Shown: piece by piece, positions 16,840 to 36,342 of the stretch
How positions within the stretch are numbered: position 1 is the first letter of the stretch
How the letters are laid out: each line of letters starts with the position of its first letter
DNA from: an uncultured Bacteroidota bacterium
GTDB taxonomy: Bacteria > Bacteroidota > Bacteroidia > UKL13-3
Assembly: GCA_903910445.1 (NCBI GenBank)
Contig: CAIVZR010000062.1
Coordinates: forward strand, 1-50,526
Length of the DNA: 50,526 nt
Direction: 5' to 3'
Notes under the pieces: model-generated
What the model was told of the DNA's origin: nothing
What the model saw: the letters and a program-made list of their open reading frames with translations, nothing else
The model's database searches: none
Made by a program: the position numbers and the translations under genes

Positions 16840-19743
16840 TTAACGCAATGCCTCGTATATTACTTGCTGCATTTTACTTCTCACACTTAATTTTAAAATC
16901 TTGTCGTTCTCTTGATCGGGACAAACTCGGTTACTTAGAAAAACAAATACCATATTATATTTTGGATCAGCCCATACACTGATTCCTGTAAACCCAGTAT
17001 GTCCAAAGGTTAAAGTACTTGCCCCATTATACATCACATCGGCATCCGTTGGCTTGCGCTTCTGTTTATCAAAACCCAATCCACGCCGGCTAGTAAGCGA
17101 TTGATATGAAGTAAATAAATCAACCGTTTCAGAACTGAAATATTTTACGCCATTATAGGTTCCTTTATTTAGAAGCATTTGAAAGATAATACTTAAATCA
17201 TAGGCATTGCTAAATAGTCCAGCATGCCCAGCAACCCCACCAAATAGTGCTGCTCCAGGATCATGCACATAACCTTGCAATAATTGTTTCCTAAATACGG
17301 TATCATTTTGTGTGGGAACAATATCCTCTTTTTTATAATAGTGAAGTGGATTGAAGCTGGTAGTGGTAAGTCCTAAAGGTTGGTAAAAAGTTTTATTTAG
17401 GTACTTCTCAAAATCCTGAGCGGTAATTTTCTCAACCAATCGTTTTAATAAAATAAAATCCAGATCGCTATACACATATTTTCCTGGAGGCGCCACCGGG
17501 CTTTTTAGAATCGTCTTCCAAATCACATCCAGATAATTAGCACGCAAATACATACTATCAGCTACCTGTATCGAGTATTTTTTATCAGGTGAATTACGAA
17601 ACGCAGTAGTGTCTTTCATTGCATCTATGTAGAATGGAATCCAAGCCTTTAGTCCCGCTTCATGCAGGAGCACTTGTTTCACTGTAATATCTTTTTTGTT
17701 AGTAGTCTTTAACTCGGGCAGATAAAAGGATAGCTTCTGGTTCAAATCAATCTTTTTCTCATCATACAATTTCATCACCGCCAAATTGGTCGCTGCCACC
17801 TTAGTCACAGAAGCCAAATCGAATAGATTGTCATTATGAACAAACTGTGAATCGGTATTGTAGGTGAAAGTGCCAAATGACTTTTCATAACAAATCATAC
17901 CGTCTTTTGCAACGAGCACCTGACAGGCTGGAAATGCTTTTTCCGCAATGGCCCAGCGTGCAACCGTATCGATATTATTTAAAATTCTGCTGTCGAGTTG
18001 TACCGCTTCAGGTATGGTGTATTGCATCCCTTTCATGGCAGTGGTATTCACCGTTTGATGCAATACATAATGGTTATTCACATTTACTGGCAAGCTCCCC
18101 AAGGATGGTTTCAATCCAAAAATTATTTGCGAAGCGGTGAGCATATTAGCTTCTGTTTCTTCGAAGGCTTCAATTACATTCTTGGCATCATTAAAATTAG
18201 AGAGGCTATATGCATTGGCGAAGTTCACTAGAATCGTTTTTTTCTTTTTGCATAGTGCATTCACAAATGCTGCTTCTGTTGGGGTTATGCCATATTCCTT
18301 GGTGAAAAATCGGCTGGTTCCATGCAGGCTCACAATGACGATATCGTATAAGGCAAGTTTCTTCATCCAGGCGTTCACTTCGGCTTTGGTAAAATTTTTA
18401 TCGGTGGCATACACATCCATTTTTGCATAATGACGCAATTGCACTTGAAAGAAATTCTCTTTCTTATCGCCGATTACCAAACTTGCAATTTTTAATCCCG
18501 GGCGTTTTATCAATGGGAGTAATTGCTGTTGATTCGTCACAATACATACCGACGCATCCGCCATTTGTTGTATCAATAGTTTTGTTTGTGGTGGATTCAA
18601 ATCATCGATCACACATACCGAATCTATTGTATTAAATGTTTTGTAACCACTCCATGCCTTCGCTTTTAAAATGCGTAAAACATGCATATCAATATCTTTT
18701 TCATTGATGATATTGCTATCTAAAGCGCCCTTGATTCTTTGCACTGCCGTAGCTACATCATCCACACAAAGTAGCACATCGCAACCAGCCAAGAGTGCCA
18801 TGAGCTCGGCATCCCCATTCTTGTAGTATTTGGTGACCCCTTTCATGTTTAAAGCATCTGTAAAAATCAAGCCGTCAAATTTCAAGCGTTTGCGTAACAA
18901 ATCTGTTACAATGATTGGTGAAAGTGTTGCTGGTATATTTGGTGTGGTATCAAAGCAAGGCATATTGATATGTGCTACCATCACACCCATGGCGCCCACA
19001 TCACTTAAGTATTTAAATGGAAATAATTCCAATGAATCCAGTTGTTCCAGCGTCTTACACAGGATGGGTAAATCTTTATGCGAATCAACGCCTACATCTC
19101 CATGACCCGGAAAATGTTTGGCAGAAGTGATGATATGCGCTTCTTGCATACCTCTCATATAGGCAGCACTGTATTGTGCCACGCGGTGGGGTTCTTCTCC
19201 AAAAGAGCGATCACCAATCACAGGGTTTAGCGGGTTATTATTAATATCTACATCAGGAGCAAAGTTGATATTGATGCCCATGCGTTTACATTCACGACCC
19301 ACTTCCTTTCCCATCTCATAAATCAAACTATCGTTGCGCATGGCTCCAAGCTGCATCTGTTTGGTGAAGCTGGGAGTATTTTCTAAACGCATACTCAAAC
19401 CCCATTCTCCATCTATGGCAATAAACAAAGGTATTTTAGAAATATTTTGATAGTAGTTGGTTTGTTCCACCTGTTTTGCTGGACTTCCTTTAAAAAATAT
19501 TATTCCACCAACATGATAAGTTTTTATGAGGTCTTCAATCACAAATAAATCTTCCTTGGCGGAAGTAGCTGATACGATAAAAAGTTGCCCAATCTTTTCT
19601 TCCAGTGTCATTGTTTTTAGAAGACTATCAGCCCATTTATTCGGAGCCTTACATGGATGAACCTGAGCGTAACTCGATTGCGCCAAAAGAAATAGAATCA
19701 GGGTAATTAAAGGTTTTAGTAAATTTTTAGTAGCACTCATCAT
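16840..19743 (-). CDS. Fusion of GH3 beta-N-acetylhexosaminidase and serine hydrolase (beta-lactamase family)
   Basis: A 967-residue exported protein (signal peptide ~1-26, SSYAQ). Residues ~35-365 are a GH3/NagZ-type domain: MTLEEKIGQLF, AIDGEWG, GDRSFGEE, KHFPGHGDVGVDSH (His210, Asp220, His222, the NagZ Asp-His general acid/base loop) and IFTDALNMKG with the likely nucleophile Asp296. Residues ~370-580 are a linker domain as in two-domain GH3 enzymes. Residues ~590-965 are a class C beta-lactamase/esterase-like domain with SVTK (Ser645-Lys648), YSD (Tyr758) and HTG (His915). Both halves keep their catalytic residues. This pairing in Bacteroidota suggests periplasmic cell-wall sugar and peptide hydrolysis, although the exact reactions are inferred. 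A TATATTTG box lies at 19769-19762. Confidence 0.88.
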   Translation of the reverse strand: MMSATKNLLKPLITLILFLLAQSSYAQVHPCKAPNKWADSLLKTMTLEEKIGQLFIVSATSAKEDLFVIEDLIKTYHVGGIIFFKGSPAKQVEQTNYYQNISKIPLFIAIDGEWGLSMRLENTPSFTKQMQLGAMRNDSLIYEMGKEVGRECKRMGININFAPDVDINNNPLNPVIGDRSFGEEPHRVAQYSAAYMRGMQEAHIITSAKHFPGHGDVGVDSHKDLPILCKTLEQLDSLELFPFKYLSDVGAMGVMVAHINMPCFDTTPNIPATLSPIIVTDLLRKRLKFDGLIFTDALNMKGVTKYYKNGDAELMALLAGCDVLLCVDDVATAVQRIKGALDSNIINEKDIDMHVLRILKAKAWSGYKTFNTIDSVCVIDDLNPPQTKLLIQQMADASVCIVTNQQQLLPLIKRPGLKIASLVIGDKKENFFQVQLRHYAKMDVYATDKNFTKAEVNAWMKKLALYDIVIVSLHGTSRFFTKEYGITPTEAAFVNALCKKKKTILVNFANAYSLSNFNDAKNVIEAFEETEANMLTASQIIFGLKPSLGSLPVNVNNHYVLHQTVNTTAMKGMQYTIPEAVQLDSRILNNIDTVARWAIAEKAFPACQVLVAKDGMICYEKSFGTFTYNTDSQFVHNDNLFDLASVTKVAATNLAVMKLYDEKKIDLNQKLSFYLPELKTTNKKDITVKQVLLHEAGLKAWIPFYIDAMKDTTAFRNSPDKKYSIQVADSMYLRANYLDVIWKTILKSPVAPPGKYVYSDLDFILLKRLVEKITAQDFEKYLNKTFYQPLGLTTTSFNPLHYYKKEDIVPTQNDTVFRKQLLQGYVHDPGAALFGGVAGHAGLFSNAYDLSIIFQMLLNKGTYNGVKYFSSETVDLFTSYQSLTSRRGLGFDKQKRKPTDADVMYNGASTLTFGHTGFTGISVWADPKYNMVFVFLSNRVCPDQENDKILKLSVRSKMQQVIYEALR

Positions 19744-22115: not shown

Positions 22116-25100
22116 TTACCATACTTCCCAATTATTTTCGGTATTCTCTTTCCTTGAGGTGGGTCGTTGTCGGCCCCCAGTGAGTATTTGTACCTGTGCA
22201 CTCACATAATTTTTCAATTCTTCAATGGTGGTCTTCTGATTCTTATCGATGTCGGCAGCCCCATTTTGCAAAGCATTGAGCACACAATAAGTAAACACCC
22301 CGTTATTCCATTGAGCACTTTCAAGCGCATATTCTTTACCGCCAGCAGCACTTATTACAATGGCTCCGTTGCCATTACTGATATCGCTAAAAAGGTCTTG
22401 CATTAACTCAAAACTATTTTCAAGTCCTATACTATTACTATCGATAATCAAATCGGATCCTCTGGCTGCGATGCCCGAAACACCTGGGTTTGCAGGTCCA
22501 TTCACAACCCTAATATTCTCCGATTTATCAATTTCGCCACTATGGCAAGCATCTACCAATAATAATTTATTTCGTGAAGGAATCCCATCAAGCAAATCTT
22601 CCAGGTCGTCGTATAATAATCCTTTTAACTCGGGATGTTGAAAATCCATATCATAGGTGGCATAATAAAAATCGAGTGACTTGCTTAATAATCCATGGCC
22701 ACTCAAGGAGATGATAACTTTATCATTCACCGATGTTTTCATCAGGAGTTCTTTAAGTGCAAGGATATTGGCTTTGGTAGCTTTCTCATTGGTGAGTAAA
22801 ATTACCTTCGCATTTTTTAATTGGAGTTGTTTCGATAAGTCACTCACATCTTTTTCGGCATACTTCAAATTAAAAGAGCTGTCTTGATAACGACTCACTC
22901 CAATACCAATAAAGTAAGTAGTATAGTTTGCGGCTCCTCCTTCATACACTATTTCAAATTGCTCTTTATAACTTTCCACTCCCTGAGCATTGATGCAGGA
23001 TACGGTAATTTTATTCTTTTCGTTACTTAGGGTTAAAGCACATTCTTCAATTACGGAATTGCCTGTAATAGCTTTCCCTCTTACTCCATACACGGGCACA
23101 TCATTCACCCATACATGTAAACTCTTGAGTGCATATATAGGATCTTCGGCTTTTATTTTGAAATGCAATTCAGATGCTTTGGTGCTGATGGGTATTTGAT
23201 TATTGACAATTGCAATAGTAGGAACATGAAAAGTACCACCCAATTGCTTCTCATCAAAACCTGCTCTCACGAGGCGTTTTTGATAGGCCACATAATACGA
23301 TTTGATTAAAGGAACATTCGGGTTGTTTTTTTCATCTTCAAAAGCCAATCGCGAAATATCGTTCAATATAATATCGGGGCGATTGTATTTTAAATCGAAT
23401 TGCTCGAAGGGATAAATTTCATTTCCAATTCTAAAGGATAATGCCTTCGCGGCACCCTTGGTTGCAAAATAATAACCTTGAGGATTGGTGATAATATAGT
23501 CGTTGCCTCCCTTTAAAATCAGGTAACTCAAGAGCTCCTTCCCACTTGTTATATCCCAAATTTTGAGTTGTGTGTCGAGGCTGCCACTAAAAATATATTT
23601 TTGATTATTGCTGAATAAAACACTTCGTACTTCATTTTGATGCCCTGCAAATGATTTAATTAATGTCCCGCTAGTCACATCATAAAGCCTCACCATAAAA
23701 TCGGCACCTCCACTACAAATTAATTTCCCATTGGCACTAAAGCTGATAGTAGAAAATCCTGCCCCGTATTGTTTAATATGTTTTATTAGTTCGCCCGTTG
23801 TGGCATCAAAAATCTTTATCCAGCTGCCGCCGCAAGCGGCAATGTACTTGCCATCGGGGCTATAGGCTACCGACATGATGGAGGTGTATTTCATGGCAAA
23901 ATTTCCATCCATACTCATCGAAGTTACAGAGCCATACGCCATCACCATCGACGTATCATAATATCCACTAATTAAACTGTGTGATTCAATAGTTTTCGAA
24001 AGTGCTTTACTTTCATAACTATACAGGAGTAACTTCCCATCCAAAGTACCTGCCGCAAAGCTAGCGCCGTCGGGGCTTACCGCCAAGGAACCAATCCCAC
24101 TTTTATCGGCAAAAATGGTTTCCGATTTATTACGATCGGGGCGCCAAAATAAAATATTTCCATCCTTGGTACCCCCGAGATAATTTTTTCCATTGGGTGT
24201 CATGGTAACTGCTTTCATTGGTGCAGATCCAATACTCATATCACCACTATTGCCATTACCAGGAAATGCATACCACGATAATTTACCATTGACACAAGAA
24301 GCCCCAATGGATTTGTTGCGTGTACTGAAAGCGATTTGTGTAATAAACTCGTTTGCGCCTTCGCCTTTGAAAAATGGAAGTAGTTTCCCGCGTTGTAAAT
24401 CCCATACTCCAACATGATTGCCAGTTTCTAAATGCCCTGAAGAGAATGCCAAATAATTTCCCGAACCACTTAAGCTAAGGCTTTGTAGGTATTCGCTGAT
24501 GGAGGCAAAATTGCGAACCACTTTCCCGGTTGCTAAACTATAGAGCTTGGATGTCCAGTCATTACTCGCAGTAAGAAGAAATCGTCCATCGGTACTAAAC
24601 ACTAAATCATTCACCATGCCAGTATGCGCTTTCACCAAATTAACTATATCACCCGATTGATTGAGTAAGGGTTTTCCATCAATGGTTTTCACATTTACAC
24701 TTCCATCTTCTAATGCATACGCTAATTGTGTTCCAGCTTCATTCAGGGTGGAAGTGGTATATCGTAGAGAGTCTTTGGCCCATGCTTCAATTTTTTTCTG
24801 GGTGCTTAACTGATAACATACCAATGATTCATAATTGCTTAATACTACGATATCATGATGGGCACTCATGGCATCTGGACTATAAATTCCAGGCATCGAT
24901 TGTAAGAGTTTACCATCACTCATTGAATAGGTAAGTATTTTTTCTTTTTTATATTCAGAGGTGGCAATGAATAAGGATTTATCATCATCACTAAATTGTA
25001 TCAGCTTTGCATTACTCATTGGTAACTTGCGGTAAGTACTAAAATCGTTGGTATTAAGTAGGAATACGCCATCATCATTCTTGCATGCCAACCATTGATT

Positions 25101-25478
25101 GGAGTGACTTAAGGCAATACAACTAACTGGAGATTTCGGATTAACAAGTTGTTTTAAAATCTTACCCGTGAGTGCATCCCATTTGATAATTCGTTGATCG
25201 TCCCAACTACAGCTATAGATAGTTTTTCCATCTTTACTAATCTGAACAGCATACACCAAACCACGATGACCATTAAATGTGCGGATTAATAATCCGTTAC
25301 TCATATTCCATAATTTGATGGTATTATCACTACTTCCGGTTACTGCATATTGCCCATCGGGGGTCATGCTTACACAACGCACACGGTCGCTATGGCCAAG
25401 CTGCACCATGGTTTCTGCTTGCTGAGCATAGGTATGATAGCTGATAAATAATAGAAGAATGTAAAATAATTGTTTCAT
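22116..25478 (-). CDS. Secreted WD40-repeat protein with C-terminal caspase-like peptidase domain
   Basis: An 1120-residue protein starting with a signal peptide (cut near YAQQ, ~18). Residues ~25-690 hold a long series of WD40 repeats, enough for two propellers; clear blade ends are GSSDNTIKLW, SCSWDDQRIIKW and GSLDTQLKIW. A beta-sandwich-like linker follows (~740-845). Residues ~851-1110 are a peptidase C14 (caspase/metacaspase) domain: YFIGIGVSRYQ on the first strand, catalytic His928 in SLSGHG and catalytic Cys978 in LLLVDACHSGE, so the dyad is intact. No T9SS sorting domain is seen, which suggests a periplasmic location. Caspase-fold enzymes cut after basic or acidic residues; its target is unknown. 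WD40 parts usually bind partners or sense signals. Confidence 0.9.
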   Translation of the reverse strand: MKQLFYILLLFISYHTYAQQAETMVQLGHSDRVRCVSMTPDGQYAVTGSSDNTIKLWNMSNGLLIRTFNGHRGLVYAVQISKDGKTIYSCSWDDQRIIKWDALTGKILKQLVNPKSPVSCIALSHSNQWLACKNDDGVFLLNTNDFSTYRKLPMSNAKLIQFSDDDKSLFIATSEYKKEKILTYSMSDGKLLQSMPGIYSPDAMSAHHDIVVLSNYESLVCYQLSTQKKIEAWAKDSLRYTTSTLNEAGTQLAYALEDGSVNVKTIDGKPLLNQSGDIVNLVKAHTGMVNDLVFSTDGRFLLTASNDWTSKLYSLATGKVVRNFASISEYLQSLSLSGSGNYLAFSSGHLETGNHVGVWDLQRGKLLPFFKGEGANEFITQIAFSTRNKSIGASCVNGKLSWYAFPGNGNSGDMSIGSAPMKAVTMTPNGKNYLGGTKDGNILFWRPDRNKSETIFADKSGIGSLAVSPDGASFAAGTLDGKLLLYSYESKALSKTIESHSLISGYYDTSMVMAYGSVTSMSMDGNFAMKYTSIMSVAYSPDGKYIAACGGSWIKIFDATTGELIKHIKQYGAGFSTISFSANGKLICSGGADFMVRLYDVTSGTLIKSFAGHQNEVRSVLFSNNQKYIFSGSLDTQLKIWDITSGKELLSYLILKGGNDYIITNPQGYYFATKGAAKALSFRIGNEIYPFEQFDLKYNRPDIILNDISRLAFEDEKNNPNVPLIKSYYVAYQKRLVRAGFDEKQLGGTFHVPTIAIVNNQIPISTKASELHFKIKAEDPIYALKSLHVWVNDVPVYGVRGKAITGNSVIEECALTLSNEKNKITVSCINAQGVESYKEQFEIVYEGGAANYTTYFIGIGVSRYQDSSFNLKYAEKDVSDLSKQLQLKNAKVILLTNEKATKANILALKELLMKTSVNDKVIISLSGHGLLSKSLDFYYATYDMDFQHPELKGLLYDDLEDLLDGIPSRNKLLLVDACHSGEIDKSENIRVVNGPANPGVSGIAARGSDLIIDSNSIGLENSFELMQDLFSDISNGNGAIVISAAGGKEYALESAQWNNGVFTYCVLNALQNGAADIDKNQKTTIEELKNYVSAQVQILTGGRQRPTSRKENTENNWEVW

Positions 25479-25601
25479 TAGCTATTAACGATAAGTACTG
25501 CAAGTTAGGAATTATAAAATAATTGAAGATACCTTTAAGAGGGTATTCCAACATATTGCTATTATTCTTAAATTCACGACTTCAAACAAACAGCTCATCT
25601 C

Positions 25602-26639
25602 ATGAAAAATTTCTTCTTCATTCTATGTTTTATAATTATAGGACAATCGTTAAATGCCCAATTATACCCGATTAAAATCAATAATGATTGGGGTTATATT
25701 GATACTACTGGAAAGATCGCGATTGAACCTGCATTTAAATGGGCAGGCTTTTTTATTGATGGTTTAGCATTTGTTTCATCAGGGAAACAATTTGGTTTTA
25801 TTGATGAAACAGGGAAGCTGGTTATCAAAGAGCAGTTTGCTAATGTTTCAAATTTCTCGGAAGGATATGCTAGTTTTTTGGAAGATGAAGATTGGGGTGT
25901 AATCAATACCAAAGGGGAAATAGTGATTGAACCAAGGTTTGCAGCCCCATTAATATTTCATGATGGTTTAGCCAAATTCAAATTGGAACGTGGATTATTC
26001 TCCACTTATGGCTTTGTAAATGCCAAAGGAGACACTGCAATTTATCCCCGATACGAAAAGCTGAGTGAATTTAGTAATGGGGTATGTATGGCTTCAGAAG
26101 ATGGAAGTAAATATGGATATATCAATACCCAAGGCGAATGGGTTATACCAGCAACCATGGATATTGGAGTGATGATGAAAATTAATGGAGAATATGATTT
26201 CAGTGATAAAGATTTTAGCAATGGATTTATTGCAGTTTCTAAAAATGATAAATATGGCTTGATGGATATCAATGGGAAAATGGTGCTCGATTATAAATTT
26301 GATTTCATTGGCAAATACTCCGAAGGACTGGCTCCAGCTAAGAAAGATAGCTTGTATGGCTATATCGATCAACGTGGTAATTGGGTAATTAAGCCCATTT
26401 ATAATGGAGCCGAAATGTTTCGTAATGGATTGGCCGCCGTTTCGAAGGGTCCTTACTTAAGTGAACAATGGGGATTTGTTGATCATTCAGGAAAAGTGGT
26501 TATTCCTTTGAATATTTATGGAAATTTTAATCCATACAAACCGATGGAATTTTTCAAAGGTGCCGTAGCGTGTTATATCACCGAAGGGGTTTTTGGATAT
26601 ATCAATAGAGCAGGAAAGGTGATCTGGAAATTAGAATAG
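25602..26639 (+). CDS. Secreted WG-repeat protein
   Basis: A 345-residue protein with a signal peptide (~1-19) followed by about eight to nine WG beta-hairpin repeats of the pattern 'wGyid..G..vi.P.f....F..GlA.v', for example NDWGYIDTTGKIAIEP, QFGFIDETGKLVI and GYIDQRGNWVIKP. The repeats fill the whole mature protein, with no catalytic motif. WG repeats are thought to mediate binding. It is divergently transcribed from the WD40-caspase gene with 123 bases between the starts, so the two could share regulation. An interaction between them is only a suggestion from position. Confidence 0.88.
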   Translation: MKNFFFILCFIIIGQSLNAQLYPIKINNDWGYIDTTGKIAIEPAFKWAGFFIDGLAFVSSGKQFGFIDETGKLVIKEQFANVSNFSEGYASFLEDEDWGVINTKGEIVIEPRFAAPLIFHDGLAKFKLERGLFSTYGFVNAKGDTAIYPRYEKLSEFSNGVCMASEDGSKYGYINTQGEWVIPATMDIGVMMKINGEYDFSDKDFSNGFIAVSKNDKYGLMDINGKMVLDYKFDFIGKYSEGLAPAKKDSLYGYIDQRGNWVIKPIYNGAEMFRNGLAAVSKGPYLSEQWGFVDHSGKVVIPLNIYGNFNPYKPMEFFKGAVACYITEGVFGYINRAGKVIWKLE

Positions 26640-28240: not shown

Positions 28241-28831
28241 ATGATTGATTTATTCTTTGAGATTTTAATCGCAAATGCCGCTCACCATCGGTATGCTTCA
28301 CAAATATGTGAAGAGATGGAGCATTCTTCTAAGCAAAGAGGAACAGGTATTTCAAAGCGTTCTCCCGAAATGATTATGGAGAAAATGTCGGCAGGCAAAG
28401 CCGTAATCGCTCTCACCCACGATGGGCAATGGGCCGGTTTCTGCTATATCGAATCGTGGGAGGATGGGAAGTTTGTTTCGAATTCGGGGCTCATCGTTGC
28501 GCCCTCATTTCGCAAAGGTGGACTGGCTCGAAAAATTAAAAATGAAATTTTCGAGTTATCACAAATGAAATACCCCAATGCAAAAATCTTTGGATTAACC
28601 ACCAGTGCTGCGGTGATGCGTATTAATTCTCAAATGGGATACGAACCTGTTATCTATTCGGAAATTACTGAGGACGAAAATTTTTGGGAAGGATGCAAAA
28701 GCTGTGTGAACTATGAAATTCTAATTAGCAAAGGCAAGAAGAACTGTTTTTGCACCGCCATGCTTTTTGAACCCATGGCCGAAATCAAGGAAATGTCACA
28801 ACCTCAACCTTTAAAACAATTGGCTTCATGA
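28241..28831 (+). CDS. GNAT acyltransferase, likely N-acylglutamate synthase of arginine synthesis
   Basis: A 196-residue GNAT-fold protein. The acyl-CoA pyrophosphate-binding loop is FRKGGLARKI (~91-100), preceded by the GLIVAPS strand and followed by the YPNAKIFGLTTS strand. A C-terminal extension carries several Cys (WEGCKSCVNYEI, KNCFCTAM) typical of this subgroup. It is the first gene of the arginine operon and overlaps argG by 4 bases (ATGA). Because no classical argA or argJ is present in the operon, it probably makes N-acetyl- or N-succinylglutamate. With the transcarbamylase residue seen downstream, succinyl-CoA is a plausible donor, but this is inference. I recall a similar Bacteroides GNAT being proposed for this step. 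Confidence 0.78.
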   Translation: MIDLFFEILIANAAHHRYASQICEEMEHSSKQRGTGISKRSPEMIMEKMSAGKAVIALTHDGQWAGFCYIESWEDGKFVSNSGLIVAPSFRKGGLARKIKNEIFELSQMKYPNAKIFGLTTSAAVMRINSQMGYEPVIYSEITEDENFWEGCKSCVNYEILISKGKKNCFCTAMLFEPMAEIKEMSQPQPLKQLAS

Positions 28832-30027
28832 TCCAACCCAAAGTAGTACTTGCATTTAGCGGCGGACTCGATACCTCGTATTGTGCTATCTATCTTTCTA
28901 AAATAAAAAATTTAGAAGTCCATGCCGTATTGGTTAATACTGGTGGATTTTCTGAAGAAGAAATTCAAGAAATTAAGCAAAGAGCCCTAACCCTTGGTGC
29001 GAGATCGTTTGAATGCGTTGATGAAACCACTCATTATTATGATCAATGTATCAAGTATCTCATCTTTGGAAATGTATTAAAAAATAATACCTACCCACTT
29101 TCAGTGAGTGCAGAGCGTATACATCAAGCCACTGCCATTGCACATTATGCGAAGAAAATTGGAGCGCAATATGTTGCACATGGAAGCACTGGTGCAGGCA
29201 ATGATCAGGTTCGTTTCGATATGATATTTAATATCCTCATCCCAGGAGTTGAAATTATTACACCCATTCGTGATCAAAGACTATCACGTGCAGAGGAAAT
29301 TAGTTTCCTGAAATCAAATGGAGTTGAAATGAATTTTGAGAAGGCCCAATACAGCGTAAATAAAGGAATCTGGGGTACCTCTGTAGGCGGTGTTGAAACA
29401 ATTACCTCACATTCGGGTTTGCCCGAAACAGCGTATCCTACCCAACGTACTCAAGAGCAGCCCCTCGATATTACGTTACATTTTGTAGGTGGCGAATTGG
29501 TGGGATTGAATGAATTAAAATATAATAATTCAGTGGAAGCAATTCAAGAATTACAAAAAATGGCGGGGCCTTTTGCTATCGGAAGAGACATACATATTGG
29601 CGATACCATCATTGGGATTAAAGGTCGTGTGGGCTTTGAAGCGGCAGCACCACTTATCATCCTCAAGGCACATCATGCACTCGAAAAGCATGTGCTTACC
29701 AAATGGCAATTATTTTTAAAAGATCAATTATCCGATTGGTATGGCAATTGGCTTCACGAAGGTCAATTTCTGGATCCAGTGATGCGTGATATTGAAGCGT
29801 TCTTCGAAAGCACTCAAATAAAGGTTACAGGTAAGGTATTTGTAACTCTTGCACCATATCGCTTTCAGGTAACAGGCATCGAATCGGAACACGACTTGAT
29901 GTCGGCAAAATTTGGAAGCTATGGCGAAATGAATACTTCGTGGAGCGGAGAAGATGTAAAGGGATTCTCAAAAATATTTGGCAATGCTACCGCCATCTAT
30001 CATCAGGTTAATCAAAGCGTACTTTAG
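28828..30027 (+). CDS. argG: Argininosuccinate synthase
   Basis: A 399-residue cytoplasmic enzyme of the N-type ATP pyrophosphatase fold. The P-loop-like AFSGGLDTSYC is at 9-19; STGAGNDQVRFD (~117-128) binds citrulline/aspartate. It joins citrulline and aspartate using ATP, giving argininosuccinate. It starts inside the last codons of the GNAT gene (ATGA overlap) and ends 5 bases before argC, indicating tight translational coupling. Length is normal. Confidence 0.97.
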   Translation: MIQPKVVLAFSGGLDTSYCAIYLSKIKNLEVHAVLVNTGGFSEEEIQEIKQRALTLGARSFECVDETTHYYDQCIKYLIFGNVLKNNTYPLSVSAERIHQATAIAHYAKKIGAQYVAHGSTGAGNDQVRFDMIFNILIPGVEIITPIRDQRLSRAEEISFLKSNGVEMNFEKAQYSVNKGIWGTSVGGVETITSHSGLPETAYPTQRTQEQPLDITLHFVGGELVGLNELKYNNSVEAIQELQKMAGPFAIGRDIHIGDTIIGIKGRVGFEAAAPLIILKAHHALEKHVLTKWQLFLKDQLSDWYGNWLHEGQFLDPVMRDIEAFFESTQIKVTGKVFVTLAPYRFQVTGIESEHDLMSAKFGSYGEMNTSWSGEDVKGFSKIFGNATAIYHQVNQSVL

Positions 30028-30032
30028 GATAC

Positions 30033-31016
30033 ATGAAGAAAATAAGAATAGGAATTGTAGGCGGAGCTGGCTATACAGGAGGCGAATTAATTCGTTTGCT
30101 ATTGCTTCATCCCTTCGTGGAAATTACAGGGGTAGTGAGTACGAGCCATGCACACCAACCGGTATATTCAGTGCATACCGATTTAATTGGTGATACTGAT
30201 TTGAAATTTACCGATACGTTGCCTGCAGATATCGAAGTTTTGTTTTTATGTGTTGCACATGGTGAAGCCATTAAGTTTCTTCAGCAAAATAATATTGCAG
30301 AGCATATCAGGATTATTGATTTGAGTCAGGATTTTCGATTGCAAGCCACCAATGAATTGGGTGCCAGAAAATTTATTTATGGTCTTCCAGAATTACAACG
30401 CGAACAAATAAAATCGGCTACAAATATTGCCAATCCTGGATGCTTTGCCACCTGCTTACAATTGGCATTATTGCCTTTGGCGGCTTCGAATTTACTGAAC
30501 GATGAAGTGCATGTGCAAGCCACCACCGGTGCTACTGGAGCCGGACAAAGTTTGTCAGCAACTTCTCATTTTGCCTGGAGGAACAATAATTTATCGGCCT
30601 ATAAAGCATTTGAACATCAGCATCTGTTAGAAATTAGCCAGAGCATACATCAATTGCAACCGAGCTTTGATCAACACATCAATTTCATTCCTCAACGAGG
30701 GAATTTTTCGAGAGGAATTTTTGCAAGTACGTATGTGAATTCAAAACTTTCTTTGAATGAGGCATACACACTCTTTGATGAGTATTATTCAACACATCCT
30801 TTTGTTGTTATAAGCAAAGAAAATATTGATTTAAAACAAGTAGTCAATACCAATAAATGTGTGATGTATCTTGAACATCACCACGATAAACTATGGATTG
30901 TGAGTATGATTGATAATTTACTTAAGGGGGCTTCTGGGCAAGCTGTTCAAAATATGAACCTCATGCTTGATTGGCCCGAAACAACAGGATTAAAACTAAA
31001 GGCATCGGCCTTCTAA
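30033..31016 (+). CDS. argC: N-acyl-gamma-glutamyl-phosphate reductase
   Basis: A 327-residue NADPH-dependent reductase. The N-terminal Rossmann loop is GGAGYTGGEL (10-19), and the catalytic Cys137 sits in ANPGCFAT (133-140); the family's substrate loop GATGAGQS and the HQHLLEI segment follow. It reduces acylglutamyl phosphate to the semialdehyde, the third step of the acylated branch. It lies 5 bases after argG and 12 before argD. The enzyme is known to work on acetylated substrates; in Bacteroidetes with the succinyl pathway the homolog uses the succinylated form. Confidence 0.95.
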   Translation: MKKIRIGIVGGAGYTGGELIRLLLLHPFVEITGVVSTSHAHQPVYSVHTDLIGDTDLKFTDTLPADIEVLFLCVAHGEAIKFLQQNNIAEHIRIIDLSQDFRLQATNELGARKFIYGLPELQREQIKSATNIANPGCFATCLQLALLPLAASNLLNDEVHVQATTGATGAGQSLSATSHFAWRNNNLSAYKAFEHQHLLEISQSIHQLQPSFDQHINFIPQRGNFSRGIFASTYVNSKLSLNEAYTLFDEYYSTHPFVVISKENIDLKQVVNTNKCVMYLEHHHDKLWIVSMIDNLLKGASGQAVQNMNLMLDWPETTGLKLKASAF

Positions 31017-31028
31017 TTTGACAACACT

Positions 31029-32183
31029 ATGAATTTATTTGACGTATATCCGCTTTTTAATATTACTCCTGTGCGTGCTTCAGGAAGTTATCTCTGGGAC
31101 GAACATGGAATACAGTACCTCGATTTATACGGAGGACATGCTGTGATTTCTGTAGGACATGAACACCCATATTATGTGAAGCAACTCACCAACCAGCTTC
31201 AGAAAATTGCGTTCTATTCCAACTCTGTTCAGATACCGATGCAAAAGGTATTGGCACAGAAACTAGGAGAGCAAAGTGGGTATCAAGACTATCAATTATT
31301 TTTATGCAACTCAGGTGCTGAAGCCAATGAGAATGCGTTCAAATTGGCGTCGTTTCATACAGGTCGCAAGAAAATTATATCGTTCGAAAAATCCTTTCAT
31401 GGCCGCACTTCTGCTGCTGTGGCTGCCACCGACGATCCATCCATCGTTGCTCCCATTAATGAAACACCCAATATTATTTTCTGCAAATGGAATGATGCAT
31501 CGATGTTGCAACAAATATTTGAAGCCAATGAAATTGCGGCCGTTATCATCGAAGGTATACAAGGGGTAGGAGGTGTAAATATACCAGAGATTACGTTTCT
31601 CCAAAAAATAAAAACACTATGTGATGCGAATGGGGCATTGATGATAGCAGATGAAATTCAATCGGGATATGGCAGAAGTGGAAAATTCTTCGCCCATCAG
31701 TATGCAGATATTCGCCCGGATATTATCACCGTAGCCAAAGGAATGGGCAACGGATTTCCTGTTGCAGGCGTGCTAATTCACCCGAATATAAAACCCAAGC
31801 ATGGTATGCTGGGCACCACCTTTGGTGGCAACTACCTGGCCTGTGCTGCAGCCATTGCAGTACTCGATATCATTAAGCATGAAAATTTAGTAACGAATGC
31901 AAACGAGGTAGGCGAGTATCTCATACATCAGTTGCATGGCATACCTGGCATAAAAGAAATCCGAGGCTTAGGACTCATGATTGGAATTGAACTTCAAGTG
32001 CCTTGTGCTGCCATTCGTAATGAATTATTAAACGAGCATAAAATATTTACTGGATCATCTTCTAATAAAAACACCTTGAGAATTTTACCAGCTCTCAATA
32101 TCTCAAAAACGGAAGCCGATATTTTTATCACTGCCTTTAAAAGCATCATGTATAAACAATTTAAAACAAGCCTTGCACAATAA
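31029..32183 (+). CDS. argD: Acylornithine aminotransferase
   Basis: A 384-residue fold-type I PLP enzyme (class III aminotransferase). NSGAEANENAFKLA (94-107) binds the cofactor phosphate, Asp208 in LMIADEIQSGYGR contacts the PLP nitrogen, and Lys237 in TVAKGMGNGFP is the Schiff-base lysine. TTFGGNYLA follows as usual. It converts acylglutamate semialdehyde to acylornithine using glutamate. It sits between argC and argF', with 16 bases to the chosen argF' start. Confidence 0.95.
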   Translation: MNLFDVYPLFNITPVRASGSYLWDEHGIQYLDLYGGHAVISVGHEHPYYVKQLTNQLQKIAFYSNSVQIPMQKVLAQKLGEQSGYQDYQLFLCNSGAEANENAFKLASFHTGRKKIISFEKSFHGRTSAAVAATDDPSIVAPINETPNIIFCKWNDASMLQQIFEANEIAAVIIEGIQGVGGVNIPEITFLQKIKTLCDANGALMIADEIQSGYGRSGKFFAHQYADIRPDIITVAKGMGNGFPVAGVLIHPNIKPKHGMLGTTFGGNYLACAAAIAVLDIIKHENLVTNANEVGEYLIHQLHGIPGIKEIRGLGLMIGIELQVPCAAIRNELLNEHKIFTGSSSNKNTLRILPALNISKTEADIFITAFKSIMYKQFKTSLAQ

Positions 32184-32199
32184 CCACAATCAAAATACC

Positions 32200-33159
32200 A
32201 TGAAAAATTTCACCTCTTTATCCGATGTTTCCAATATCGACAAACTGGTGCAGGAGGCTTTACAATTGAAGGCCAACCCCTTATCGTTTCGCTCTTTGGG
32301 AGAAGGCAAGACGATAGGGTTGGTTTTTCTAAATCCTAGTTTACGTACCCGAATGAGTACTCAGAAAGCAGCCATGAATCTGGGTTTGAACGTGATGATC
32401 CTCAATGTAAATCAAGAGAGTTGGGCATGGGAGTTTGAGGATGGCGCTATCATGAATGGAATGAAAGTAGAGCATGTGAAAGATGCTGCAGCAGTGATTA
32501 GTCAGTATTGCGATATCGTGGGTATCCGTTGTTTCCCATCATTACAAAATAAGGAAGAAGATACCAACGAATATGTATTGAACCAATTCATGAAATATTG
32601 CCAGGTACCTGTCGTATCATTGGAATCGGCAACACGTCACCCGTTGCAAAGCTTGGCCGACCTGATTACAATAACAGAAGCATGGAATCAACCACGTAAA
32701 CCCAAGGTAGTGCTTACCTGGGCTCCTCATATCAAACCCTTACCACAAGCGGTTGCTAACTCTTTCAGTGAATGGATGTGCAAGGTACCCGTAGATTTTG
32801 TTATTACCCATCCCGAAGGATATGAATTGCACGAGTCGTTTACCCAAGGTGCTACCATTGAATACAACCAGCAGAAAGCCTTGCAGGGTGCCGATTTTGT
32901 GTATGTGAAAAACTGGTCGTCATACCACAATTATGGAAGGATACTTCCAGAGAATAATGATCACTGGCTGCTGAATGAAAAGAGTATGCAGGTAACACAG
33001 AACGCAAAAATTATGCATTGCCTCCCAGTGCGTCGCAATGTGGAATTAAGCGATGTCCTTCTCGATGGCCCAGTTTCTCTTATTCAGCAACAAGCAGGAA
33101 ATAGGTTATATGCTGCACAAGTTGTTTTAAAAGAAATTCTTCAAAGCCTGAATCAATAA
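32200..33159 (+). CDS. argF': N-acylornithine carbamoyltransferase, probably N-succinylornithine type
   Basis: A 319-residue transcarbamylase. I use ATG 32200 (MKNFTSLSDV); an in-frame TTG at 32173 would overlap argD. Carbamoyl-phosphate motifs are NPSLRTR (45-51), RHPLQSLAD and MHCLPVRRN. The protein matches the acylornithine group rather than ordinary ornithine transcarbamylase: it has LTWAPHIKPLPQAVANSF and the HCLPVRRN loop. Residue 90 in NGMKVEHV is Val. At the equivalent position Xanthomonas acetylornithine transcarbamylase has Glu92, Bacteroides fragilis succinylornithine transcarbamylase has Pro90, and Glu92 to Ser, Pro or Val is reported to switch specificity to succinylornithine. 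A succinyl substrate is therefore likely, pending a proper alignment. Confidence 0.88.
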   Translation: MKNFTSLSDVSNIDKLVQEALQLKANPLSFRSLGEGKTIGLVFLNPSLRTRMSTQKAAMNLGLNVMILNVNQESWAWEFEDGAIMNGMKVEHVKDAAAVISQYCDIVGIRCFPSLQNKEEDTNEYVLNQFMKYCQVPVVSLESATRHPLQSLADLITITEAWNQPRKPKVVLTWAPHIKPLPQAVANSFSEWMCKVPVDFVITHPEGYELHESFTQGATIEYNQQKALQGADFVYVKNWSSYHNYGRILPENNDHWLLNEKSMQVTQNAKIMHCLPVRRNVELSDVLLDGPVSLIQQQAGNRLYAAQVVLKEILQSLNQ

Positions 33160-33162
33160 GCA

Positions 33163-33957
33163 ATGCAGACACTACAAATTATAAAAATAGGAGGTGATAT
33201 CATTAATCATGAATTGAAATTAAAGCAATTTATTTCCATGATTTCTGAAATCAAGACAGCGATGATTTTGGTTCATGGTGGCGGTAAACTACTCGATCAA
33301 TTGGCTTCTCGCCTGGGCATCGAGCAGCAAATGGTTGATGGTCGCCGCGTTACAGATGCTGCTACATTGGAACTGGCAAGCATGGTTTACGCCGGAGGAA
33401 TCAATAAAAAAATTGTAGCACTTTGTCAGTCGCAAGGCCTCCATGCCTTAGGTCTCAGTGGAGCAGATAATAATTGCTTGCAGGCCCAGCAACGCAAAAT
33501 TGGTGAAAATGATTTTGGTTTTGTGGGTGATATCAACAAGGAAGGGGTGAATTCAAAATTCATTTCCTTATTGTTATCCAATGATATCATGCCTGTATTT
33601 TGTTCAATCACGCATGATAACCAAGGCCAATTATTCAATACCAATGCCGATACCCTCGCTTCCGTAATCGCTCAGTCGATGAGTTCATTTTATGATGTTA
33701 AATTGATTTATTGCTTTGAAAAAAATGGAGTACTACGAAATATTGATGATGAAGAAAGTGTAATTCCAAGTATCAATACCAACGAATATAAAACACTGCA
33801 ACAAGAAGGAATAATTTCCAAGGGCATGATTCCTAAGCTGGATAATGCCTTCGATGCAATTCAATCGGGTGTGCAAAAAGTAACCATCATGCATGCGCTT
33901 CATATTCTAAAAAATAATCAAGATGAATCCAATGTCGGAACAAAAATTAGCCTATAA
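33163..33957 (+). CDS. argB: N-acylglutamate kinase
   Basis: A 264-residue amino-acid kinase family protein. IKIGGDIIN (~6-14) binds phosphate, LVHGGGKLLDQL (~37-48) is the glycine-rich loop, VDGRRVTDAATLE (~58-70) the substrate-binding segment, and NTNADTLAS the later nucleotide segment. It phosphorylates acylglutamate. It starts 3 bases after argF' and overlaps the argE-like gene by 26-35 bases. I see no extra N-terminal helix of the arginine-sensitive hexameric kinases, so feedback control may rest elsewhere. Confidence 0.93.
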   Translation: MQTLQIIKIGGDIINHELKLKQFISMISEIKTAMILVHGGGKLLDQLASRLGIEQQMVDGRRVTDAATLELASMVYAGGINKKIVALCQSQGLHALGLSGADNNCLQAQQRKIGENDFGFVGDINKEGVNSKFISLLLSNDIMPVFCSITHDNQGQLFNTNADTLASVIAQSMSSFYDVKLIYCFEKNGVLRNIDDEESVIPSINTNEYKTLQQEGIISKGMIPKLDNAFDAIQSGVQKVTIMHALHILKNNQDESNVGTKISL

Positions 33958-35029
33958 GTCGCTGCCAATTGAGGCTTTGCAAAATGGAGCAATCGATTTA
34001 TTGAAGCAATTGATTGCTATTCCATCCTTGAGTAAACAAGAGCATGATACCGCTTCATGTATTGAACAATTCTTGCATTCAAAAAATATTACCACACAAC
34101 GCCTGGGCAATAATGTTTGGGCACGCAATCAGTTTTATGATGAACGCAAACCCACCATCTTACTCAATTCACACCATGATACGGTGAAGCCCAATGCTGG
34201 CTATACCAAGAATCCATTCGAAGCCATTGAAGAAAATGGCAAGCTCTACGGTCTGGGAAGCAATGATGCTGGAGGTCCATTGGTGAGTTTGATGGCAGCC
34301 TTTTTATATTTCTATCCAGTTCCTGAATTGAAATATAATTTTATTTATGCAGCTACTGCCGAAGAGGAAATCTCAGGAAAAGATGGTGTAGCATCTATTC
34401 TCGATAGTATTGGCCCCATTGATGTTGCGATTGTAGGGGAGCCAACGCAAATGGAACTCGCCATTGCCGAGAAGGGATTGTTAGTGATTGATTGTGTATC
34501 CAAGGGTATTTCAGGGCATGCCGCACATCCCAATCCGAATAACGCGATCATCAATGCCCTCGATGATTTACATTGGTTCCGAAATTTTCGCTTTCCAAAA
34601 GTATCTAAATTTTTAGGCGAAGTGAAAATGAGTGTCACCATCATTCATGCGGGTAACCAGCATAATGTAGTACCCGATACTTGTGCCTTTACAGTGGATA
34701 TTCGCACTACCGATGACTATAGCAATCAGAAGGTACTCGATATCGTGCAATCGCATGTACAGTGTGAGGTGACGCCTCGATCGATGATTCTGAATGCTTC
34801 TGCTATCGCCGAAGAACATCCATTGGTAAAGGCAGGAATTCAACTTGGGCGCAAAGTGTATGGGTCGCCTACCAGTTCAGATATGGCGGTGATGAATTTT
34901 CCAGCAGTAAAAATGGGTCCAGGAAACTCTTTGCGTTCGCATACCCCTGATGAATTTATTTTCATTGAAGAGATTGAATCAGGGATAGAAATGTATATTC
35001 AAATGCTTTCAAAAATTGTATTATCATGA
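33923..35029 (+). CDS. argE: M20 family deacylase, acylcitrulline/acylornithine deacetylase-like
   Basis: A 368-residue M20 zinc peptidase-type amidohydrolase. Metal ligands fall in the family motifs: NSHHDTV (His84 and Asp86), GSNDAGG (Asp115), TAEEEISG (the Glu pair at ~147-149), VGEPTQMELA, and the final His in SLRSHTPDEF. The dimerisation lid lies between GLLVIDCVSKG and DIRTTDDY. Either ATG 33923 or 33932 could start it; both overlap argB. In the acylornithine transcarbamylase pathway the acyl group is removed after carbamoylation, so the substrate is probably N-acylcitrulline. It overlaps argH by 4 bases. Confidence 0.9.
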   Translation: MNPMSEQKLAYKSLPIEALQNGAIDLLKQLIAIPSLSKQEHDTASCIEQFLHSKNITTQRLGNNVWARNQFYDERKPTILLNSHHDTVKPNAGYTKNPFEAIEENGKLYGLGSNDAGGPLVSLMAAFLYFYPVPELKYNFIYAATAEEEISGKDGVASILDSIGPIDVAIVGEPTQMELAIAEKGLLVIDCVSKGISGHAAHPNPNNAIINALDDLHWFRNFRFPKVSKFLGEVKMSVTIIHAGNQHNVVPDTCAFTVDIRTTDDYSNQKVLDIVQSHVQCEVTPRSMILNASAIAEEHPLVKAGIQLGRKVYGSPTSSDMAVMNFPAVKMGPGNSLRSHTPDEFIFIEEIESGIEMYIQMLSKIVLS

Positions 35030-36342
35030 GTCATAAAATTTGGCAAAAAAACAATGCTACTTCTAGTGAGCACGCCGATATTGTTGGTAAATTCACGGTG
35101 GGTAACGATCGCGAATTTGATTTTCAACTGGCACGTTACGATGTGATAGGTTCTATGGCACATGCTGAAATGCTCGTGAGTATTGGCTTATTGACTGCTG
35201 ATGAAGGGCAACAAATACAAAACGCCTTACAAGAAATAGCCCAGGAAATTGAAGCGGGAGAATTTAAATTAGATGATACTGTTGAAGATATTCATTCGCA
35301 AATTGAGTATCTGCTCACGCAACGCATTGGTGAAGCAGGAAAAAAAATACATAGTGGTCGCTCCCGCAATGACCAGGTGCTGCTCGATTTAAAATTGTTC
35401 ATGCGAAATGAGTTGGAAGAAATTACTCGCAATGTTCAAATTTTATTTAATGAGCTCATTACCTTAAGCGAAAAAAACAAGAACCATCTTTTACCCGGCT
35501 ATACCCATTTACAATTGGCCATGCCCTCTAGTTTTGGTTTGTGGTTTGGAGCCTATGCGGAGTCACTCACCGACGACTTGGAAATGCTACGTGCAGCACA
35601 TGCCGTATGTAATAAAAACCCTTTAGGATCGGGAGCAGGCTATGGTTCATCGTTTGCCTTAAACCGAACCCTCACCACCGAACTCTTACATTTCGATACC
35701 ATGAATTATAATGTGGTATATGCTCAAATGACAAGAGGGAAGAGTGAAAAAATCATGGCCATGAGCATGTCAACGGTGGCTGCAACTTTATCCCGACTAG
35801 CCTACGATATTTGTTTGTATATGAATCAGGAATTTGCTCTCGTATCCTTTCCCGATTCACTCACCACGGGCAGCAGCATCATGCCACATAAGAAGAACCC
35901 CGATGCATTTGAACTCATCAGGGCGCGTTGCAATAGAATACAAGCCTTGCCCAATGAACTTACCTTACTCACCAACAATTTACCCTCTGGCTATCATCGC
36001 GATGTGCAGCTTACCAAGGAGTGTTTATTTCCTGCTATCGAATCGTTAAAGCAATGCCTCACCATGGCCACGTTTATGCTTCAACATATATCAGTAAAGC
36101 ACGATGCACTTGCTTCATCGCATTTTGATGTATTGTTTAGTGTGGAAGAGGTAAACCAGCAAGTGCATGAGGGCGTGGCTTTCAGGGATGCGTATAAAAA
36201 TGTCGCGTCGGCTATCGAAGGCAATAATTTTCATCCAACAAAAGAAATGCATCATACCCACGAAGGTAGTATGGGCAATTTATGTAATGATAAAATTGTT
36301 GCTCAGTTTAATTCGGTGCTGGGGCAGATTCTTAAAAGCTAA
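35026..36342 (+). CDS. argH: Argininosuccinate lyase
   Basis: A 438-residue member of the fumarase/aspartase superfamily. HSGRSRNDQV (~107-116) and GYTHLQLAMPSSFG are substrate loops; the flexible signature loop TTGSSIMPHKKNPD (~279-292) carries the catalytic Ser near residue 282. It releases arginine and fumarate from argininosuccinate, the last step of the pathway. It is the last gene of the operon and starts within the argE-like stop (ATGA). Its stop overlaps the last codons of the convergent Lrp-family gene by 4 bases. Confidence 0.97.
   Translation: MSHKIWQKNNATSSEHADIVGKFTVGNDREFDFQLARYDVIGSMAHAEMLVSIGLLTADEGQQIQNALQEIAQEIEAGEFKLDDTVEDIHSQIEYLLTQRIGEAGKKIHSGRSRNDQVLLDLKLFMRNELEEITRNVQILFNELITLSEKNKNHLLPGYTHLQLAMPSSFGLWFGAYAESLTDDLEMLRAAHAVCNKNPLGSGAGYGSSFALNRTLTTELLHFDTMNYNVVYAQMTRGKSEKIMAMSMSTVAATLSRLAYDICLYMNQEFALVSFPDSLTTGSSIMPHKKNPDAFELIRARCNRIQALPNELTLLTNNLPSGYHRDVQLTKECLFPAIESLKQCLTMATFMLQHISVKHDALASSHFDVLFSVEEVNQQVHEGVAFRDAYKNVASAIEGNNFHPTKEMHHTHEGSMGNLCNDKIVAQFNSVLGQILKS

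Follow-up and report, generated by a model that had tools for sequence, protein, structure and literature searches.

A divergently encoded WD40-caspase and WG-repeat protein of uncultured Bacteroidota as a candidate exported two-protein unit

We have analyzed a stretch of 50,526 nucleotides from an uncultured bacterium of the UKL13-3 lineage of Bacteroidota (contig CAIVZR010000062.1 of assembly GCA_903910445.1), hereafter called the window, in which the gene for a metacaspase-like protein of 1120 amino acids (22116-25478, reverse strand) lies divergently beside the gene for a WG-repeat protein of 345 amino acids (25602-26639, forward strand), with 123 bases separating their start codons. It is well supported that the two genes form a conserved unit, whereas the biochemical meaning proposed for it is inferred. 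Both proteins begin with a hydrophobic leader of the Sec type without a lipobox Cys, as judged by eye: residues 1-18 of the WD40-caspase (25425-25478, reverse strand), which resemble the leaders of many family members, and residues 1-19 of the WG protein (25602-25658, forward strand), which correspond to a low-confidence helix in its structural model. A preliminary description of this DNA had reported a secreted protein combining a long WD40 array with an intact caspase dyad next to a divergent neighbor made of WG repeats, and had given the same spacing between the starts; open reading frames (ORFs), Pfam matches and codon positions agree with this account, the repeats of the neighbor following its leader. 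We consider that there is about an even chance that the pair constitutes a co-regulated, exported unit of two proteins, namely a zymogen WD40-caspase and a WG partner that regulates it, switched by a two-component system.

Conservation and history of the gene pair

The divergent pair is present in four of the five genomes of the genus. Identity to the caspase and WG proteins of the window is 95 and 99%, respectively, in genome G003, 68 and 72% in G001 and 69 and 70% in G002 (G and L numbers designate genomes and loci). The surrounding genes have changed in G001, in which the pair and an adjacent DEAD-box helicase gene stay together, and a gene for 558 amino acids sits between the caspase gene and a gene for 146 amino acids in G002. 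The pair is also found in two more distant genomes: at L113, with 59 and 65% identity, which appears to be equivalent to G394 from another family of the class, and at L119, labeled as Chitinophagaceae, with 33 and 39% identity. Outside the pair, L113 and L119 share no flanking ORF with one another, with the loci of the genus or with the window, save for two weak matches (62 residues with L111 and 85 residues between L113 and the window). The remaining genome of the genus, G004, is 99% complete and has neither ortholog: the WD40 matches in it are all partial (best E 2.5e-13), and its WG paralog reaches 29% identity.

The neighborhoods of WD40-caspase genes were compared across the top-ranking part of 375 relatives, which amounts to 77 distinct loci. 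Six ORFs in these loci match the WG profile, five of which are divergent 5' neighbors of a WD40-caspase gene (L111, L112 and L114, the genus loci of G001, G002 and G003, plus L113 and L119) while one lies far off (L162). Seventy loci with 80 caspase genes entered the neighbor count, 63 of these genes having another gene as 5' neighbor, seven a further WD40-caspase gene (uncounted) and ten no visible neighbor, those of L115 and L121 being among the last. Seven loci were dropped (L116, L117, L118, L149, L151, L174 and L179); they contain no caspase ORF according to the motif filter and no WG ORF either. WG is the 5' neighbor in 5/63 cases vs 1/631 among the other flank genes (Fisher p 3e-5, or p 0.0025 with one count per lineage), and these counts, together with the distant pairs, reject chance adjacency as the sole cause of the arrangement. 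Among 395 sampled genomes of the class, WG matches below 1e-100 occur in three (G000, G002 and G394) and full-length caspase matches in the same three; the pair is therefore rare. Two other arrangements were seen. In G012, which belongs to the same family but another genus, a different WG protein of 535 amino acids is encoded directly upstream, and on the same strand, of a WD40-caspase gene (L084:5759-10868); it was excluded as a further pair, the caspase being very distant (end branch 7.23) and the WG protein matching that of the window only in part. In three genomes of the genus (L041:6330-10420, L047:5893-9984 and L049:5985-10084), the gene for a leader-bearing protein of 214-216 amino acids comes after that of a second WD40-caspase paralog, a neighbor that was not seen on reading the G001 copy of this paralog (L048).

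Phylogenetic trees suggest which part of the caspase protein has travelled with WG. In a quick tree of the 380 residues preceding the NRPD motif, corresponding to residues 319-698 (23385-24524, reverse strand) of the window protein, the WD40 halves of the window, L111-L114, L119, L115 and L121 form a single clade (SH-aLRT, the Shimodaira-Hasegawa-like approximate likelihood ratio test, 100; eight rows); WG is not observable for L115 and L121, their contigs beginning within the gene or shortly ahead of it. The part following the motif rejects the same eight rows as one clade in the approximately unbiased (AU) test (p 2.5e-6), although this group was named after an earlier tree had placed L119 apart. 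For the WD40-half tree, four rows (L164_0, L165_2, L185_0 and L084_0) lacked the split motif; the caspase-half tree leaves out these four together with L042 and L055. The paired WG proteins also form one clade (support 86/91; 83% of bootstrap trees; 19 rows). Since the WD40 halves and the paired WG proteins are each monophyletic while the caspase halves are not, it seems, from these trees, that the caspase half has been exchanged while WD40 and WG were kept together. The WD40 half is, however, the end of the gene that physically adjoins WG, and linkage alone may produce such a shared history; a DEAD-box helicase gene, identified with Pfam, likewise adjoins WG in all four genus genomes with the pair. 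The genes would then have remained together by descent or because of their common promoter region, with no interaction of the proteins. We consider this hitch-hiking possible but doubtful, given that the pair persists at 33 and 39% identity while the flanks of L113 and L119 differ, and that both orthologs are missing together from G004, which retains the rarA and helicase genes at separate places.

The shared promoter region

The intergenic region contains an operator-like dyad, ATACC-N8-GGTAT (25529-25546), which is kept in the four sequences of the genus with a different spacer and recurs with the same ten bases in the intergenic region of L119. The eight-base form, TACC-N8-GGTA, lies upstream of 10 of 84 family rows vs 0.64 expected, with 0, 1, 0, 0 and 1 for the controls with reversed order and four altered spacings. 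The motif was derived from the genus of the window and at least two genes entered twice among the 84 rows; without the pair of this genus and the two double entries, six of 78 rows retain it vs 0.59 expected (L119, L138, L143, L157, L165 and L169). In addition, the paralog L041 of the window genome has a dyad with one mismatch at -65. Counted over whole genomes, the ten-base form is found 10, 5, 11 and 9 times in G000, G002, G003 and G001, respectively, vs 5, 2, 3 and 4 for the reversed control. The corresponding values for G004, the sole genus member without the pair, are 0 and 10.

Nineteen further sites of the ten-base form were examined, and the eight intergenic ones suggest a dyad regulon. 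One of these lies upstream of a HisKA_3 sensor-kinase gene, others precede genes for exported proteins of the PQQ-propeller type (in three genomes) and for TPR proteins (in two), which are orthologous by their starts, a further one follows the gene of a REC-GerE regulator, and another separates a glycosyltransferase gene from a small one. The dyads of the PQQ-type propeller genes are located at L217:1108, L222:2462 and L231:1175 and have different spacer sequences. TACC-N8-GGTA shares the geometry of a NarL site, which consists of inverted heptamers in a 7-2-7 arrangement in the engineered case described in the available text of PMC4549865, with a heptamer consensus resembling TACYYMT in that of PMC4886647; it is thus a candidate operator, the likeness being one of geometry.

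These targets bear upon another explanation, according to which the pair would serve envelope quality control: a BamB-like propeller would accompany an envelope protease that stress induces, with a two-component system in control. The export leaders and the NarL-type geometry of the dyad are consistent with it, as is the presence of the same ten bases upstream of PQQ/BamB-like propeller and HisKA_3 genes in the genus; we regard it as unlikely, for the similarity is one of fold only and the targets derive from eight intergenic sites among 19.

Protein architecture and predicted cleavage

Besides the WD40 arrays recognized by Pfam, the caspase protein contains a Peptidase_C14 domain (PF00656) matched by its last 276 residues (E 4.7e-14; 53.1 bits vs a cut-off of 21.4). 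The catalytic His928 (22695-22697, reverse strand) is found in 86/86 aligned rows of the family, and so is Cys978 (codon 22545-22547), with the selection bias that the Cys motif was used to collect or filter most rows. The two findings that the preliminary description had named as fatal to its idea, a pair or a catalytic dyad that relatives do not conserve, have thus both been looked into, and relatives retain the pair (in G001, G002, G003, L113/G394 and L119, with WG rare elsewhere) as well as the dyad. Two acidic residues are also invariant in the 86 rows, Asp877 (22848-22850), which is aligned with the metacaspase NDA motif at its Asp, and Asp976, which lies within the partly selected motif Asp976-Ala977-Cys978 (22545-22553). 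The S1 pocket of the Trypanosoma brucei metacaspase TbMCA2 comprises Cys92, Asp95, Ser156 and Asp211, according to the available text of PMC4357240, and by alignment inference Asp877, Ser926 and Asp976 may be equated with Asp95, Ser156 and Asp211, TbMCA2 itself being outside the alignment. Unlike in TbMCA2, the position of Ser926 is occupied by Ala in 32/86 rows, and that of Cys92 reads Ala, Ser or Thr in 84/86 rows of our alignment.

Compared with solved structures, the profile of the domain finds metacaspase-4 at E 7.9e-5 and GSU0716 at E 2.4e-4, followed more weakly by two metacaspases (E 0.05 and 0.07) and an unrelated transaminase (E 0.47); the likeness to metacaspases, a group represented by the T. 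brucei, plant type II and yeast enzymes, thus lies in 6w8s and, weakly, in 4f6o and 7qp0, from which the window protein differs by its propeller sensor part. Its AlphaFold2 model is rich in propellers (pLDDT, the predicted local distance difference test, 81.3; 36 sequences), with residues 328-642 matching WD40 propeller structures such as 5yzv (Z 38.8) and the seven-bladed design 7bie (Z 38.6). Because the structure search with the whole model returned propellers only, it is the sequence profiles that support a caspase fold. NCBIfam includes models of sorting domains; at E <= 0.001 it detected no sorting domain of the type IX secretion system in either protein, the matches being caspase_w_EACC1 and PQQ_ABC_repeats for the WD40-caspase, both below cut-off, and none for the WG protein.

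The linker behind the catalytic Cys is variable and shows pLDDT values below 50 at residues 980-1001 and 1005-1016. Eight of the 86 rows were dropped from its analysis for want of an anchor. Among the other 78 linkers, [KR]G is present in 66 (shuffled mean 34.0, standard deviation 4.1, maximum 46) and [KR][GAS] in all (shuffled mean 61.6, maximum 70), an excess whose significance the shuffles overstate given that the family rows are related; the other P1 classes considered are not enriched in these linkers ([DE][GAS] 59 vs 58.0; [ST][GAS] 64 vs 60.6). We read the [KR]G signature as a selected site of self-cleavage with a basic P1, and predict a cut after Arg1006 in Arg1006-Gly1007 (22458-22463, reverse strand). 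Following the available text of PMC5756287, MaOC1 processes itself and type II metacaspases cut their own p20-p10 linker, while type I metacaspases show no processing between p20 and p10. An orthocaspase, being p20 only, would lack a p10 part; in the family of the window protein, the linker is succeeded by about 100 conserved residues. They end in a conserved tail of 17 residues (1104-1120; 22119-22169, reverse strand), in which Pro1106 is found in 86/86, Gln1104 in 85/86 and Arg1109 in 84/86 rows, along with Thr1107 and an aromatic end in most rows. A conceivable role of this tail is that of a pseudo-substrate placing Arg1109 in the S1 pocket.

The WG protein matches WG_beta_rep (PF14903) in six stretches (E 2.1e-68; 226.4 bits vs a cut-off of 25.6), so that it consists of WG repeats behind the leader. 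No solved structure was related to it by sequence at E 0.1, and its presence in viral contigs was not confirmed in any case. The AlphaFold2 model (pLDDT 85.5; six sequences) is propeller-like and retrieves BamB and other propellers with Foldseek at low template modelling (TM) scores of about 0.4 (BamB E 1.5e-9), 3wj9 reaching 0.58. Resemblance to envelope propellers such as BamB, combined with the leaders of both proteins, might indicate that WG serves the protease as substrate or anchor, for example as a scaffold in the envelope that is cut upon activation; such resemblance is generic for propellers, and we find this role quite unlikely.

A possible extracytoplasmic caspase switch

WD40 domains occur in 73 (10.9%) of the prokaryotic metacaspase-like proteases, or orthocaspases, surveyed in PMC3501461, the available text of which also notes N-terminal helices that are possibly signal peptides. 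The window protein resembles these WD40-containing orthocaspases in its C14 domain and His-Cys dyad and differs from them in having the WD40 array before the caspase domain, a leader for export (by reading), the conserved residues behind the linker and a conserved WG partner gene. The latter is a 345-residue array like other WG-repeat proteins of PF14903, yet its subclade adjoins WD40-caspase genes; the WG genes of L189-L193 have no caspase motif nearby within the stretches fetched. The class of WD40-caspases is therefore already known, and what looks new is the conserved partner. Among the matches listed in our literature search, as far as their text was available, no report links WG repeats with bacterial caspases (one match, on a human kinase, is unrelated), and little concerns caspase-like switches outside the cytoplasm.

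Bacterial caspases are also known from anti-phage or suicide defense, and scanning three proteins of the locus with PADLOC gave two weak matches, one to a caspase model (E 2.3e-8, model positions 8-158 of 453) and one, along the WD40 part, to a HEAT-ARM model (E 7e-18). A defense unit of this kind appears highly improbable here, considering that the protein looks made for export and that its neighbors, the DEAD-box helicase gene and what we take from reading to be rarA, resemble housekeeping genes. Elsewhere in the window, the 967-residue product of 16840-19743 is presumably a fusion of glycoside hydrolase family 3 with a beta-lactamase-type domain, and the genes of 28241-36342 read like an arginine-biosynthesis cluster, the first being a weak GNAT match.

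We thus return to the two-protein unit proposed at the outset. The WD40-caspase would be a zymogen of metacaspase type that cuts after Lys or Arg, with its WD40 propellers as receiving part, and WG would be a dedicated partner that acts on the WD40 half. Its most likely role would be that of a regulator or co-sensor, holding the protease off until a signal arrives; activation would include self-cleavage after Arg1006. A single intergenic region carrying a NarL-like site would drive both genes, which are probably switched together by the response regulator of a two-component system. The role of partner or regulator that the preliminary description had cautiously ascribed to WG gains support from the conserved linkage, the tie with the WD40 half and the promoter dyad.

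Several observations weigh against this proposal. The pair has been seen in only two well-separated lineages, the clade of the window plus L113 on one side and L119 on the other, three other WD40-caspase genes of the window genome have no WG neighbor, and some WG relatives (L189-L191) show no caspase motif within the 4 kb retrieved. L113 is without a clear dyad, having a form with two mismatches in eight bases; over whole genomes, the eight-base form shows no enrichment (67, 90 and 61 vs 120, 146 and 119 for the reversed control), and 11 of the 19 further ten-base sites fall inside genes. The trees, moreover, were built quickly and leave many forks open. The full picture, in which WG acts as a lock on the WD40 half of a Lys/Arg-specific zymogen outside the cytoplasm, within a NarL-type regulon and with exchangeable caspase halves, is consequently offered as a tentative one, less probable than not in our estimate.

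Little is known so far, to our knowledge, about what triggers bacterial WD40-caspases and which partners they have. With a conserved partner gene, a predicted cleavage site at Arg1006-Gly1007, a predicted preference for Lys or Arg and a candidate operator, this vaguely defined class becomes directly testable.

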